Source: a virus
Length of the DNA stretch: 46,193 bases
Direction: 5' to 3' (one strand)
IMG/VR virus record: IMGVR_UViG_3300025889_000202
Span: 1 to 46,193 of that record
This document shows positions 18,755 through 38,127 of the stretch, piece by piece. The number at the start of each line of letters is the position of its first letter. Position 1 is the stretch's first letter. The position numbers and the translations under genes are program-made. The notes below the pieces were generated by a model. That model saw only the letters and a program-made list of their open reading frames with translations, did no database searches and was not told where the DNA came from.

Positions 18755-19900
18755 TTATTCACCGGCTGCGTTTCCCCTAGGGACTGCCAGCGGATTTTTA
18801 GCCGCTTGATTGCGCAAGACTTTTGCCCCTGTTGGGGCAGGGGGAAGGGCCTGTTGGGGCGCCCCGTAGATGCTTGCCAGCGCTTCCGTCGCCATTCCGG
18901 CTCGTTCTGCCTTGGCCGTATAGGTCGCGGCTTGCTGGTGCGTCGAGTGCCCGAGCACGGCCATGATCTGGTGAGGCGTGCAACCTGCCTCGGCCATTCG
19001 CGCCGCAGCGGCCTTCCTGAGCCCGTGGAATGAGCATCTGGGGTGAACCCCTGCCTCCCGGCACCATTCCCGAAACTTGTTCTGTAGGCCCTTCCCCTGC
19101 TTGAAGGGCAGGCCATAGCCTGTCTCCAGGTAGGTCAGGCCCTTGCCCTGCCATGCGTCCAGCGCAGCCCGCAAGGGCGGCACAATGGGAATATCCACTT
19201 CGACAGCCCGGCGCCCGGCGTTCTTCGCCTGTGTGAACCGGAGCCGTCCGTCGCGCTCGTGGACGCGGCCAATCCTGACAGCATCCCCAATCCGCTGCGC
19301 CGTGTAGATCCCCAGCGCATAGGCTGTCCGCGCCTGCGTTCCCAGCGGGTGGCGGGCCTCATAGGCCGCGCAATCCTCCGCGGTCCACGTCCGGTGGCCG
19401 TCGCTCTTGTGCTTCTTGCGGCGCACGCCTGCGGTGGGGTCCAGCGTCACCAGTTCCTCGTCTATGGCGTGGCGGTAGACAGCACGCAGGGCTGAAAGCA
19501 ATTCCTTGCCGGCCGCGAACTCCCGTTCCTTGATCGCCCTGCGGATGATCTGCGGATCAATCACGGCAGGCATCTGCCCGATCTTGGCCGTGAGCTTGTC
19601 CAGCAGCCTTTCGCGCGGGGCCTGCGTCAAGCGGCTGAGCGCGCGAAACTCGGGGCTGATGAGGTAGGACCGGACAATATAGGCAAACGTTCCCCGGCGC
19701 GGCTTCATCGGCTTGGCGTCTGCGGATGCTTCCCCATTCCTGGCGGCGAAGTAGGCGAGGGCAAACGCCTCGCTTTCGATGTCATCGGGAAGGCGGATCT
19801 TCTGTTGGCCGCGAATGCGGAAGTAGAAGCGGACCTTGCCATATCGGTCCACGTCGCGGTGTACGTGCTTCCAGTTACCGAGCGCCATGGCCGCCTTCAT
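18755..19900 (-). CDS. int: Tyrosine recombinase integrase
   Basis: The 381-residue protein is a tyrosine-family site-specific recombinase that joins attP and attB and, with an excisionase, reverses this. An N-terminal arm-binding region (RYGKVRFYFRIRGQ) precedes a SAM-like core-binding domain (about 70-160). The catalytic domain shows Arg203 (YTAQRIGDAVRI), His292 and Arg295 (FHGLRKA), His318 (VLGHST) and nucleophile Tyr327 (AATYTAK). All key residues are present, so it should be active. It overlaps the AlpA/Xis-like gene by 4 bases and adjoins the candidate attP. Confidence 0.93.
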   Translation of the reverse strand: MKAAMALGNWKHVHRDVDRYGKVRFYFRIRGQQKIRLPDDIESEAFALAYFAARNGEASADAKPMKPRRGTFAYIVRSYLISPEFRALSRLTQAPRERLLDKLTAKIGQMPAVIDPQIIRRAIKEREFAAGKELLSALRAVYRHAIDEELVTLDPTAGVRRKKHKSDGHRTWTAEDCAAYEARHPLGTQARTAYALGIYTAQRIGDAVRIGRVHERDGRLRFTQAKNAGRRAVEVDIPIVPPLRAALDAWQGKGLTYLETGYGLPFKQGKGLQNKFREWCREAGVHPRCSFHGLRKAAAARMAEAGCTPHQIMAVLGHSTHQQAATYTAKAERAGMATEALASIYGAPQQALPPAPTGAKVLRNQAAKNPLAVPRGNAAGE

Positions 19901-26656: not shown

Positions 26657-26854
26657 TCAGTACTCCCGATGATGTGCTGTTTCAGACGCGTCCGCACAAA
26701 GCGGGCAGCGAAGGGGGCGGTGGGTCAGCTCGTGCAGCTCGTCCTGCGCTTCAGCCATCGACGCGCGAGTTCTCATCAGCGTGCGTTCCGTGTGGCGGCC
26801 GCAGATCACGCAGGGGCCGGACACTTTGGCTTTCAGGGTCAGGGTGGCTGGCAT
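26657..26854 (-). CDS. Small zinc-finger-like protein
   Basis: The 65-residue product has two CxxC pairs (CVICGRH near residue 15 and CPLC near residue 51) and is likely a single zinc ribbon. It shares its first five codons (MPATL) with the pentapeptide gene just upstream, and its start overlaps that gene's stop by one base. Confidence 0.55.
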   Translation of the reverse strand: MPATLTLKAKVSGPCVICGRHTERTLMRTRASMAEAQDELHELTHRPLRCPLCADASETAHHREY

Positions 26855-27483
26855 TACGACACCGCCTCCGTCTGCTGGACTTCAGCCGCGACCGTCGCTG
26901 CAAAGAAATCCAGAATGCGCAGGGTTTCGCGCGCCTTGGCCGTGTCGGGGTATTCAGAGGCGACGTGAGCACGGTAGGCGTCGATGGTCATGAAGCGGCA
27001 GCCCGCGACGATCTTCGGCGGGCCAGCTTCCATGTCGAACAGGTTGAACGTATAGCCGCCGTTGATGCGCGAGACGCTGGCGAGGATGCGCTTAATCTTT
27101 TCGCCGCTGAGGTCCGCGCCGCTGAGGTACGCGTCGCTGAGGTCCGCGCCGCTGAGGTACGCGCCCCTGAGGTTCGCGCCGCTGAGGTCCGCGCCCCTGA
27201 GGTACGCGCCGCTGAGGTACGCGCCCCTGAGGTCCGCGCCCCTGAGGTACGCGCCGCTGAGGTTCGCGCCGCTGAGGTTCGCGCCGCTGAGGTTCGCGCC
27301 GCTGAGGTTCGCGCCGCTGAGGTTCGCGCCCCTGAGGTCCGCGCGGCTTTTCACAGCCACTCGCACAGCCAGCCCCAGCTTGATCGACGGCAACTCGTCT
27401 AACGCGCAGTCGATTTCAGCCGTGAACATCACTGCGCCGGAAAAGCGGTTTTTGATTTCGTATTTCTGCAGGGTGGCTGGCAT
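26854..27483 (-). CDS. Pentapeptide-repeat protein
   Basis: The 209-residue protein contains 16 uninterrupted pentapeptides of the form A(D/N/Y)L(S/R)G at residues 48-127, which should fold as a right-handed quadrilateral beta-helix. An N-terminal beta domain ([18 protein letters not shown]) and a C-terminal domain ([16 protein letters not shown]...) flank it. Some family members mimic DNA and inhibit gyrase, but many have unknown roles and nothing here decides. It is the first gene of the leftward operon, directly behind the operators, and so should be made earliest and most strongly. The repeat DNA is almost perfectly periodic, so the copy number may vary. Confidence 0.82.
27103..27342. repeat. 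Sixteen 15-bp tandem repeats encoding pentapeptides
   Basis: The unit on the + strand is close to GCGCCGCTGAGGTTC, with changes confined mainly to three positions (GCT/CCT and TTC/TAC/TCC). Five adjacent units are nearly identical, which suggests recent slippage or unequal exchange. Confidence 0.85.
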
Positions 27484-27510
27484 GGCCGTCTCCGTTGATG
27501 CTCATTGGCG

Positions 27511-27525
27511 TAACACGGGACGTTA
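27511..27525. promoter_or_regulatory. Operator site 1 (leftward promoter region)
   Basis: The sequence TAACACGGGACGTTA is an inverted repeat with TAAC/GTTA arms. It lies 28 bases before the pentapeptide gene start, where the leftward early promoter must be. It shares its pattern with three other sites in the immunity region. Confidence 0.6.
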
Positions 27526-27544
27526 TGCCATGCAAGCGGGAAAA

Positions 27545-27559
27545 TAACGTACGGCGTTA
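27545..27559. promoter_or_regulatory. Operator site 2 (leftward promoter region)
   Basis: The sequence TAACGTACGGCGTTA sits within the longer inverted repeat AATAACGTACGGCGTTATT (27543-27561). Its centre is 34 bp from that of site 1, close to three helical turns, which would let repressor dimers contact each other. Confidence 0.62.
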
Positions 27560-27561
27560 TT

Positions 27562-28062
27562 ATTTTCGCAGAGCGTTAGAAACACGTCGGTTTTTCAGTC
27601 ACGCATAGGCGCCCCTTTTCCACCTCCCGGTCTGGGGAATGCCCGACCGTGAGCCGCTGACGAGGCGGAGCGCGCGAGCGCCGTGTACTCAGTTGTTGGG
27701 CCGCTAGGCGACCCGTGGCGTTGTCCCCGCCACTCCACTGGAAGCTTTTTTCGGCGCTTCCACGAACTAGCTGGCTCGGGTGGTCATCCCGCCGACAGTC
27801 TAGTCCGTTCCCGACCGCGTGCCGGGGTTGCCGGCAAATCCCACCGTACAGGTCGCGGGGCGCAAGGGGTCAGCGTTGCCCGCAGTTTTGATTCGGCGCT
27901 TTGACGGGAGCGACGCAAACCGTGGGCGACACATCATATCACCGGGTGTTGCGCAAAATGCGTTGTGCGGCTATAAGCGAACCGCGTCGCACGCATTTGG
28001 ATGCTCGCTTCATCCAGTTGGCCCGGGGACTCTCGCCAGAGACCCGGGCCTTTGCGTGTCTT
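27562..28062 (+). ncRNA. Candidate structured non-coding RNA in the immunity region
   Basis: About 500 bp between operator site 2 and the end of the repressor gene holds no convincing gene on either strand. On the + strand it contains successive hairpins: TGGAAGC/GCTTCCA (27739-27762), TGCCGG/CCGGCA (27820-27836), an 11-bp stem with one bulge (27956-27998), TGGATG/CATCCA (27998-28016) and a strong terminator (28020-28062). Hairpins followed by an intrinsic terminator suggest a rightward untranslated RNA that might start near the operators. No known RNA family is recognised and no promoter is certain. Confidence 0.35.
28020..28062 (+). terminator. Strong rightward intrinsic terminator
   Basis: GGCCCGGG (28020-28027) pairs with CCCGGGCC (28043-28050), with an inner TCTC/GAGA stem and GCCA loop, followed by TTTGCGTGTCTT. 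The T-rich side is on the + strand, so it ends a rightward transcript coming from 27.5-28.0 kb rather than the leftward repressor transcript. Confidence 0.65.
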
Positions 28063-28080
28063 AGCCCAAGTCACGGGCCG

Positions 28081-28095
28081 TAACAAGAAGTGTTA
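28081..28095. promoter_or_regulatory. Operator-like site 3 (end of repressor gene)
   Basis: The sequence TAACAAGAAGTGTTA keeps the TAAC-N7-GTTA arms and overlaps the repressor stop codon. It is the weakest in the inner positions but is flanked by the same G and T as site 1. It may be an auxiliary site for looping, or a chance match. Confidence 0.4.
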
Positions 28096-28458
28096 TGAGT
28101 TGAGAGCGGCTCGCAAGATGACGAGGGCTTTTTCAGCTTTCTTGCGGTCAAGGTCGCGAATGAAGCGCATCAGGTCCACGACTTCGGCAGGCTGGCGCGG
28201 GTCAACGGAAATGAGCTCTGACGGTTCACAGCCAAGCGCATCGCCCAAAGCATTCAGGATTTCCTCGGAATAGGGCTGAAGCCCGCGTTCGATCCGGGAC
28301 AGGCTCATGGCGGAGATCAGCTCGTCCCCGCCTGGTTCCTTCTCCATCCGGCTTGCAAGTCGCTGCAATGACAGGCCGCGAAGCTCGCGCCACTGCTTGA
28401 TGAAGTGCTTCCCTAACACCCGCTTTGCCATGGGAAACGCGGTAGCACGCGAATCCAT
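28093..28458 (-). CDS. XRE-family phage repressor (CI-like)
   Basis: The 121-residue product has a lambda-repressor/XRE helix-turn-helix (residues about 18-75): FIKQWRELRGLSLQRLASRM, then ISAMSLSRIERGLQPYSEEI and LNALGDALGCEPSELI. The C-terminal 45 residues form a helix for dimerisation (DLMRFIRDLDRKKAEKALVI); no LexA-like autoprotease domain is present. It is divergent from the Cro-like gene and flanked by the 15-bp operators, so it is the likely lysogeny repressor. No ribosome site precedes either ATG (28458 or 28431). A TACAAT -10 box ends 6 bases before 28458, which would give a leaderless mRNA. Confidence 0.8.
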   Translation of the reverse strand: MDSRATAFPMAKRVLGKHFIKQWRELRGLSLQRLASRMEKEPGGDELISAMSLSRIERGLQPYSEEILNALGDALGCEPSELISVDPRQPAEVVDLMRFIRDLDRKKAEKALVILRAALNS

Positions 28459-28463
28459 GTTTC

Positions 28464-28497
28464 ATTGTATCGGTCAACGTTAGATTGCCAGTTGACA
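28464..28497. promoter_or_regulatory. Divergent immunity promoters
   Basis: On the minus strand TACAAT (28464-28469) is a good -10 box for the repressor, although its -35 is weak. On the + strand TTGACA (28492-28497) is a consensus -35 for the Cro-like gene, with the weak -10 TACGTA at 28515-28520. Both would place transcription starts almost at the respective ATG codons. Confidence 0.45.
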
Positions 28498-28501
28498 GAT
28501 A

Positions 28502-28516
28502 TAACACCCCGCGTTA
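28502..28516. promoter_or_regulatory. Operator site 4 (rightward promoter)
   Basis: The sequence TAACACCCCGCGTTA lies between the TTGACA -35 and the -10 of the rightward promoter, 11 bases before the Cro-like start. A bound repressor would block RNA polymerase there. Confidence 0.62.
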
Positions 28517-28527
28517 CGTACGGGGGC

Positions 28528-28761
28528 ATGAAACACCCGCTTGATACATTTTTCGAGGCGACAGGGCTGACGCCGACCGAGTTTTGCCGCCGGGCAAACA
28601 TCTCTGCGATGACGCTGAGCCGCCTGCGCCGTGGCGAGGGCGAATGCTCAACCGGTCTGATCCGGCGGGTTGCAGCAGCCACGCAAGGCGCGGTCTCGGA
28701 AATCCAGATCATCGCTGCATTCGAGGCCATCAAGCGCACCAAGACCGCAGGGGCGGCGTAA
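28528..28761 (+). CDS. Cro-like helix-turn-helix regulator
   Basis: The ATG at 28528 gives 77 residues; an upstream ATG at 28465 would run through the promoter and is rejected. The helix-turn-helix is DTFFEATGLTPTEFCRRANI followed by SAMTLSRLRRGEGECSTGLI. It is the first gene rightward from the immunity region and divergent from the repressor, so it is most likely a Cro-type switch protein. GGGGG precedes the start, but the promoter geometry may make the transcript nearly leaderless. Its stop overlaps the next start (TAATG). Confidence 0.75.
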   Translation: MKHPLDTFFEATGLTPTEFCRRANISAMTLSRLRRGEGECSTGLIRRVAAATQGAVSEIQIIAAFEAIKRTKTAGAA

Positions 28762-36720: not shown

Positions 36721-36756
36721 GGCGGTTCCTTGCTCGGGAGCCGCCTTTTGCTTTTT
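36721..36756 (+). terminator. Intrinsic terminator ending the early operon
   Basis: GGCGGTTCC (36721-36729) pairs with GGAGCCGCC (36737-36745), one G-U pair, followed by TTTTGCTTTTT. It separates the early operon from the gene at 36765 and argues against a TTG start at 36678 for that gene. Confidence 0.8.
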
Positions 36757-37851: not shown

Positions 37852-38127
37852 TGTCAGAGGGTCCTTCTCTGGCCGGGCTCGGGTGAGGTTACCGCCTCCC
37901 CGGGCCCATCTGATTTTCAATCTGCTCTCCGGGTTTTCCCCGTGCAGTAAGGTGAATCTAGCGGCGTTCCCTAACGCTTTCGCCGTTACATCTAGCGTTA
38001 TCTTTGCAATATACTTCAACTCTTCGTGAGTTCCGAAGTATTCGCCAAGTCCAATCGAAGTATTCGCAAGCAGGGGCGCTCATCTCAATTCCGGGATGAG
38101 CGCCAATCAGCATGAAAGGCGCCCCTG
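37852..38127. promoter_or_regulatory. Divergent promoter region between membrane gene and late genes
   Basis: The 276 bases carry operator-like TAACGCTTTCGCCGTTA (37972-37988, TAAC-N9-GTTA). On the late-gene side there are two mutually exclusive hairpins: GGCGCTCATC/GATGAGCGCC (38075-38104) and CAGGGGCGC/GCGCCCCTG (38071-38127). No convincing sigma-70 promoter is obvious. This should be where leftward membrane-gene and rightward late transcripts begin. Confidence 0.42.

Follow-up and report, generated by a model that had tools for sequence, protein, structure and literature searches.

A non-coding insert between the repressor gene and the left early promoter of a temperate phage, and a possible leftward small RNA gene within it

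The lambda genes rexAB, which are lysogen-related cargo, lie between cI and the left promoter; they share their map position with the stretch of phage DNA described here, but they are protein genes rather than RNA. Untranslated phage RNAs located beside immunity functions have also been described, among them OOP, sar, sas, c4, and STnc6030 (PMC12197685, PMC7067206). Like the present stretch, lambda OOP and P22 sas/sar lie beside immunity functions, but they are antisense to a known gene, while this stretch is antisense to nothing recognisable. GOLLD and ROOL (Rfam, PMC12286853) are long structured phage RNAs, whereas the stretch has no Rfam match. No RNA occupying the slot from repressor to left promoter is described in the literature searched, which was mainly open papers. 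The stretch at 27562-28078 is a non-coding insert in this slot and, if it is a gene, would most likely be a leftward, repressor-controlled small RNA gene, a reading to which we give a probability of about 0.35.

A non-coding stretch between predicted operators

The virus record IMGVR_UViG_3300025889_000202, which was analysed at its full length of 46,193 bases (the window), has 61% GC and belongs to a temperate phage. Its immunity region consists of a leftward operon with a pentapeptide-repeat gene in first place, the 27562-28078 stretch, a leftward HTH repressor gene, and rightward cro-like and replication genes (Table 1). In the candidate left early promoter an operator lies within the spacer, an arrangement that matches the right promoter. 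A 10.4-kb contig is 99.99% identical to the record and gives no independent evidence; its one-base difference falls in near-perfect 15-base tandem repeats (27102-27356) inside the pentapeptide-repeat gene. A tyrosine-integrase-like gene, read from the sequence, is located at 18755-19900, distant from the stretch, and therefore an attachment site is unlikely there.

Table 1. Features of the immunity region (positions in the window) and copies of the conserved Rhizobium RNA (positions in each locus).
Feature	Position	Strand	Basis or remark
Pentapeptide-repeat protein, first in leftward operon	26854-27483	-	Pfam E 5.3e-34
Candidate left early promoter	27507-27535	-	Sequence; TTGCAT (27530-27535), 17 bp, TACGCC (27507-27512)
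Predicted operator TAAC-N7-GTTA	27511-27525		Inside left early promoter; 34 bp from 27545 operator
Predicted operator TAAC-N7-GTTA	27545-27559		Left edge of insert
Non-coding insert, left operators to repressor stop	27562-28078		Six-frame codon score; six relatives without insert
GC-rich hairpin, 8-bp stem, inner CTCT/AGAG	28020-28050	-	5' hairpin of leftward RNA or + strand terminator, by reading
-10-like TAAGAC, candidate leftward promoter	28058-28063	-	17 bp from -35, 7 nt before hairpin; 3/6, weak
-35-like TTGTTA, candidate leftward promoter	28081-28086	-	Inside operator 28081-28095; 4/6 consensus, weak
Predicted operator TAAC-N7-GTTA	28081-28095		Begins on repressor stop codon; register as in L011-L015, L022
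Repressor gene, HTH_31	28093-28458	-	Pfam E 8.4e-9
Candidate right promoter TTGACA-17-TACGTA	28492-28520	+	Sequence; operator 28502-28516 within spacer
Cro-like HTH gene	28528-28761	+	HTH_31 23.2 bits (read from 28525), under cut-off 27
Putative slot RNA, RHph_N2	L004:4705-5175	-
Putative slot RNA, RHph_I3_18	L190:3018-3480	-
Putative slot RNA, Rhizobium sp. J15 prophage (L025/L090)	L025:6700-7160	-
Putative slot RNA	L019:6900-7350	-
Putative slot RNA	L021:6880-7330	-
Putative slot RNA	L195:1503-1968	+
Putative slot RNA	L207:931-1395	+
Putative slot RNA	L212:9996-10465	+

From about 27460 to 28090 there is no coding signal, with a codon log-likelihood below zero in all six frames, and six-frame read-through translations gave no credible match to Pfam or PHROGs (best E 0.043). 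The stretch is non-coding, and the statement of the earlier note that neither strand carries a convincing gene is borne out by these scores and searches. A hidden or broken gene was rejected on the negative codon scores and the lack of any protein-family remnant, and a tRNA or tmRNA was rejected as well. An overlooked small protein gene is very improbable: + strand frames of 81 codons (27819-28064) and 73 codons (27683-27904), for example, are present, but they share the negative codon score and the absence of a family match, and frames of such lengths are common in 61%-GC DNA.

The earlier note had recognised no RNA family in the stretch, which agrees with Rfam, which contained no match to the whole record at gathering and none to 27450-28150 when E values up to 5 were admitted; the models of GOLLD, ROOL, OLE, and HEARO were presumably part of the library searched. 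No relative of 27562-28078 was present among phage and plasmid sequences, and in IMG/VR, searched via a nominal translation, the sole match was the identical contig. The fetched loci gave only short weak matches within the insert. Matches in 50 genomes or records were merely 14-43 nt long, with E values of 0.015 or weaker; 76 genomes had none, and 385 genomes had just two, of 26 nt (E 7e-4) and 40 nt (E 1e-3). The remainder of the phage is complementary to the stretch only in chance matches of 16-18 nt.

Within the immunity region the palindrome TAAC-N7-GTTA is found in exact form at 27511, 27545, 28081, and 28502, and from these places and from relatives the sites are taken to be repressor operators. 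Among 15 loci with related repressors in which operators were inspected, six (L011-L015 and L022) have an operator on the repressor stop, the next one 34 bp on, and then immediately the left operon. The record retains the 34-bp pair at 27545/27511 and has a further operator at 28081, where the repressor stop lies, with about 500 bases in between. Since six relatives do without the stretch and operators stand on either side of it, it is most readily understood as an insertion between operators, in the slot between the repressor gene and the left early promoter. Because it is bounded in this way, the repressor control that had been proposed is plausible for any transcript, while transcription itself, its direction, its control, and any function are what we infer.

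The slot in Rhizobium phages holds a conserved RNA

Gene calls were made on 91 loci with a home-made caller. In many Rhizobium phages the slot measures 0.8-1.2 kb and holds small convergent genes and unannotated DNA. Comparison of Rhizobium phages and prophages indicates that a conserved, covarying RNA of about 460 nt, predicted to be untranslated, lies there between repressor and left promoter (Table 1; further copies in L208, L211, L213, and L214). Over six sequences it has 67-92% identity, and many of its gaps are not multiples of three. The covariance model R3 matches 12 loci, 11 of them distinct, with 160-196 bits for the six sequences used to build it and 126-153 bits for six later ones. 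In the alignment of the 12 loci, which was fitted to the model and half of which had built it, 94.8% of cells are paired and 25 of 49 pairs show two-sided changes; none of 500 shuffles reached as much, and slid versions were at most 44.6% paired. Rfam contained no match to this RNA at gathering and, at E up to 5, either none or two weak ones on the opposite strand (E 0.32 and 3.9).

Models R1 and R2 had been built on the repressor strand, which was later judged not to be the RNA, and R3 on the opposite strand. Covarying pairs number 32 of 108 on the RNA strand (score 0.341) versus 22 of 92 on the repressor strand (0.260), the structures of both strands being derived from the same alignments. 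The RNA strand also shows GNRA-type loops in the sequences, as well as TTG-17-(-10), a short A-rich leader, and a very stable 5' hairpin in every one of the 11 copies (10 distinct) for which upstream sequence exists, a count that is descriptive, as the promoter-like box had been noticed before it was counted. On the covarying pairs, the loops, and this box together, the strand of R3 is trusted, and the Rhizobium 5' hairpin as terminator of a repressor-strand sRNA was rejected. The palindrome of the presumed operator is, by reading, often found just upstream of the RNA start, and the opposite strand of that start resembles a T-tailed terminator. Caution is therefore needed with a stable T-tailed hairpin, which may mark the 5' end of an opposite-strand gene.

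The favoured strand runs toward the repressor. A repressor of the family of the record phage is convergent downstream in six of the 12 loci (L004, L025, L019, L021, L211, and L212), and in L211 and L212 the final hairpin ends 17-18 nt short of its stop. L207 and L214 gave no match to that family, L208 and L213 have too little sequence to place a repressor downstream, and a repressor of a different type is nearby in L190 and, by reading, in L201.

Similar to the stretch, the Rhizobium RNA occupies the slot between repressor and left promoter, is non-coding and of similar length (about 460 nt), adjoins operator-like palindromes, and has TTG-17-(-10), a leader, and a stable hairpin at one end. 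Unlike the stretch, it is conserved and covarying. Its predicted direction is toward the repressor. In the region of the stretch R3 reached at best 4.6 bits and R2 2.0 bits; R1 gave a weak 9.5 bits (+ strand, 27981-28063), covering the hairpin and tail alone, and an nhmmer profile of 11 Rhizobium sequences had no match. Homology between the two is not detectable by these sequence and covariance searches. By analogy with the conserved RNA in the same slot, an RNA gene in the stretch is plausible.

It is doubtful, although conceivable, that the slot is a dedicated RNA-gene site in alphaproteobacterial temperate phages, with the Rhizobium RNA found across repressor types and the record phage carrying a second RNA, unrelated or very diverged, operator-started, and tied to immunity. 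If so, a long untranslated RNA would stand under repressor control in temperate phages of a large bacterial class and could naturally be considered for a part in exclusion, anti-defence, or control of the switch; the Rhizobium phages would make this testable in culture. For the names of these phages nothing was found in the open literature, and the papers found on Rhizobium temperate phages and structured or non-coding RNA concerned only riboswitches, ribosomal leaders, regulatory motifs, and structure prediction.

Two sets of matches were rejected as copies of this RNA: the match in G859 is, by reading, protein-coding DNA, and those of R1 in L196-L200 look, by reading, like terminators only. 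The annotated protein QIG75041.1 of RHph_I3_18 (L190:3039-3449) covers this RNA, reading from the opposite strand, and is unlikely to correspond to a real gene.

Folding, the hairpin at 28020-28050, and direction

The stretch had been described as hairpin-rich, which did not hold up: by one uniform definition its hairpins number four, the average for 517 nt being 3.15, and 40% of tiles reach four. The + strand, for which the structure had been proposed, folds no better than chance (z -0.72 and -0.80 against shuffles) and takes the median place among 50 background 517-nt tile/strand folds. The minus strand folds better than its shuffles (z -2.79 and -3.13), with one 160-nt piece at z -3.76; values of -2.8 or lower were found in six of the 50 folds, one of which is the stretch itself.

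The ordinary hairpin density and + strand folding, together with the lack of detected conservation, are consistent with a stretch that makes no RNA, namely a spacer or decayed cargo module which sets the operator distance (536 bp, 27545 to 28081), perhaps for looping. Small cargo genes in the Rhizobium slot speak for this as well, and we regard it as quite possible. However, the six-frame searches show no gene remnant, relatives manage without that distance, and a promoter-like start adjoins the operator.

The earlier note had also placed a very strong T-tailed terminator, read rightward, at the repressor end of the stretch. The stable GC-rich hairpin is there: at 28020-28050 the + strand forms a structure of -22.3 kcal/mol, which by stability places it within the top 11 of the 332 hairpins in 46 kb and second among those followed by at least four T in eight. 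The tail, TTTGCGTGTCTT, is poorer than claimed, with T at four of its first eight positions and seven of its first 12, where an intrinsic terminator is defined by at least five T in eight after the stem, and a standard terminator scan did not list it.

An untranslated RNA running rightward from near the operator at 27545 to this hairpin, and so sparing the convergent 3' end of the repressor gene, would account for the seven T in 12 bases and the rank of the hairpin; a -10-like TATTAT overlaps that operator, the Rhizobium RNA has the same direction and in L211 and L212 ends shortly before the repressor stop, and the weak R1 match lies on the + strand. Against these points, no -35 is present and the promoter scan of the + strand yielded no rightward promoter, the fold is the genome median, the tail misses the five-in-eight rule, R1 was built on the non-RNA strand of the Rhizobium family, and the leader of a leftward RNA explains the same T tail. 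We consider such a rightward RNA unlikely. An RNA in the slot, as had been suggested, is backed indirectly by the Rhizobium RNA, but its rightward direction is weakened, because TTGTTA-17-TAAGAC precedes the hairpin on the minus strand and the + strand offers no promoter; the direction is probably to be reversed.

For a leftward RNA, the promoter-like start in the stretch points away from the repressor, while the hairpin tail fits the opposite direction. The Rhizobium start and this minus-strand start together lead us to lean, with low confidence, to a leftward rather than a rightward RNA. In this reading the weak promoter TTGTTA-17-TAAGAC, with its -35 in the stop-codon operator, would drive a minus-strand RNA that starts near 28051, opens with the hairpin 28050-28020, and extends about 480 nt toward the left promoter; bound repressor would turn it off in the lysogen. 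Consistent with this leftward RNA are the operators flanking the insert, the six relatives that carry operators and promoter alone at that place, the minus-strand folding, and the covarying Rhizobium RNA in the same slot with its similar promoter-leader-hairpin start. When the hairpins of -15 kcal/mol or lower are taken from both strands of the 46 kb (73 in all), two have TTG-17-(-10) 4-11 nt upstream; 28020-28050 is the more stable of these, and neither is on the + strand. When spacers of 16-18 bp are allowed, seven listings at five places result on the minus strand, so that the test is not sharp, and the same strict scan recovers three of 10 Rhizobium loci, so that it is not sensitive.

Several observations count against the leftward RNA. 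The candidate promoter matches only seven of 12 consensus bases, two of 73 may be a chance occurrence, and the minus-strand z is reached by five of 49 other tile/strand folds. The sole sequence relative found is the 99.99% identical contig, and no terminator is apparent where the insert ends on the left. Moreover, the Rhizobium RNA runs the opposite way, and its covariance models have no match here. For a role in regulating the immunity switch or acting on host RNA, both of which had been suggested, nothing was found in support.

Elsewhere in the window, the + strand carries strong terminator-like hairpins at 36721-36745 and 37875-37907, and the T tail of the former is far better than that of the hairpin at 28020-28050.
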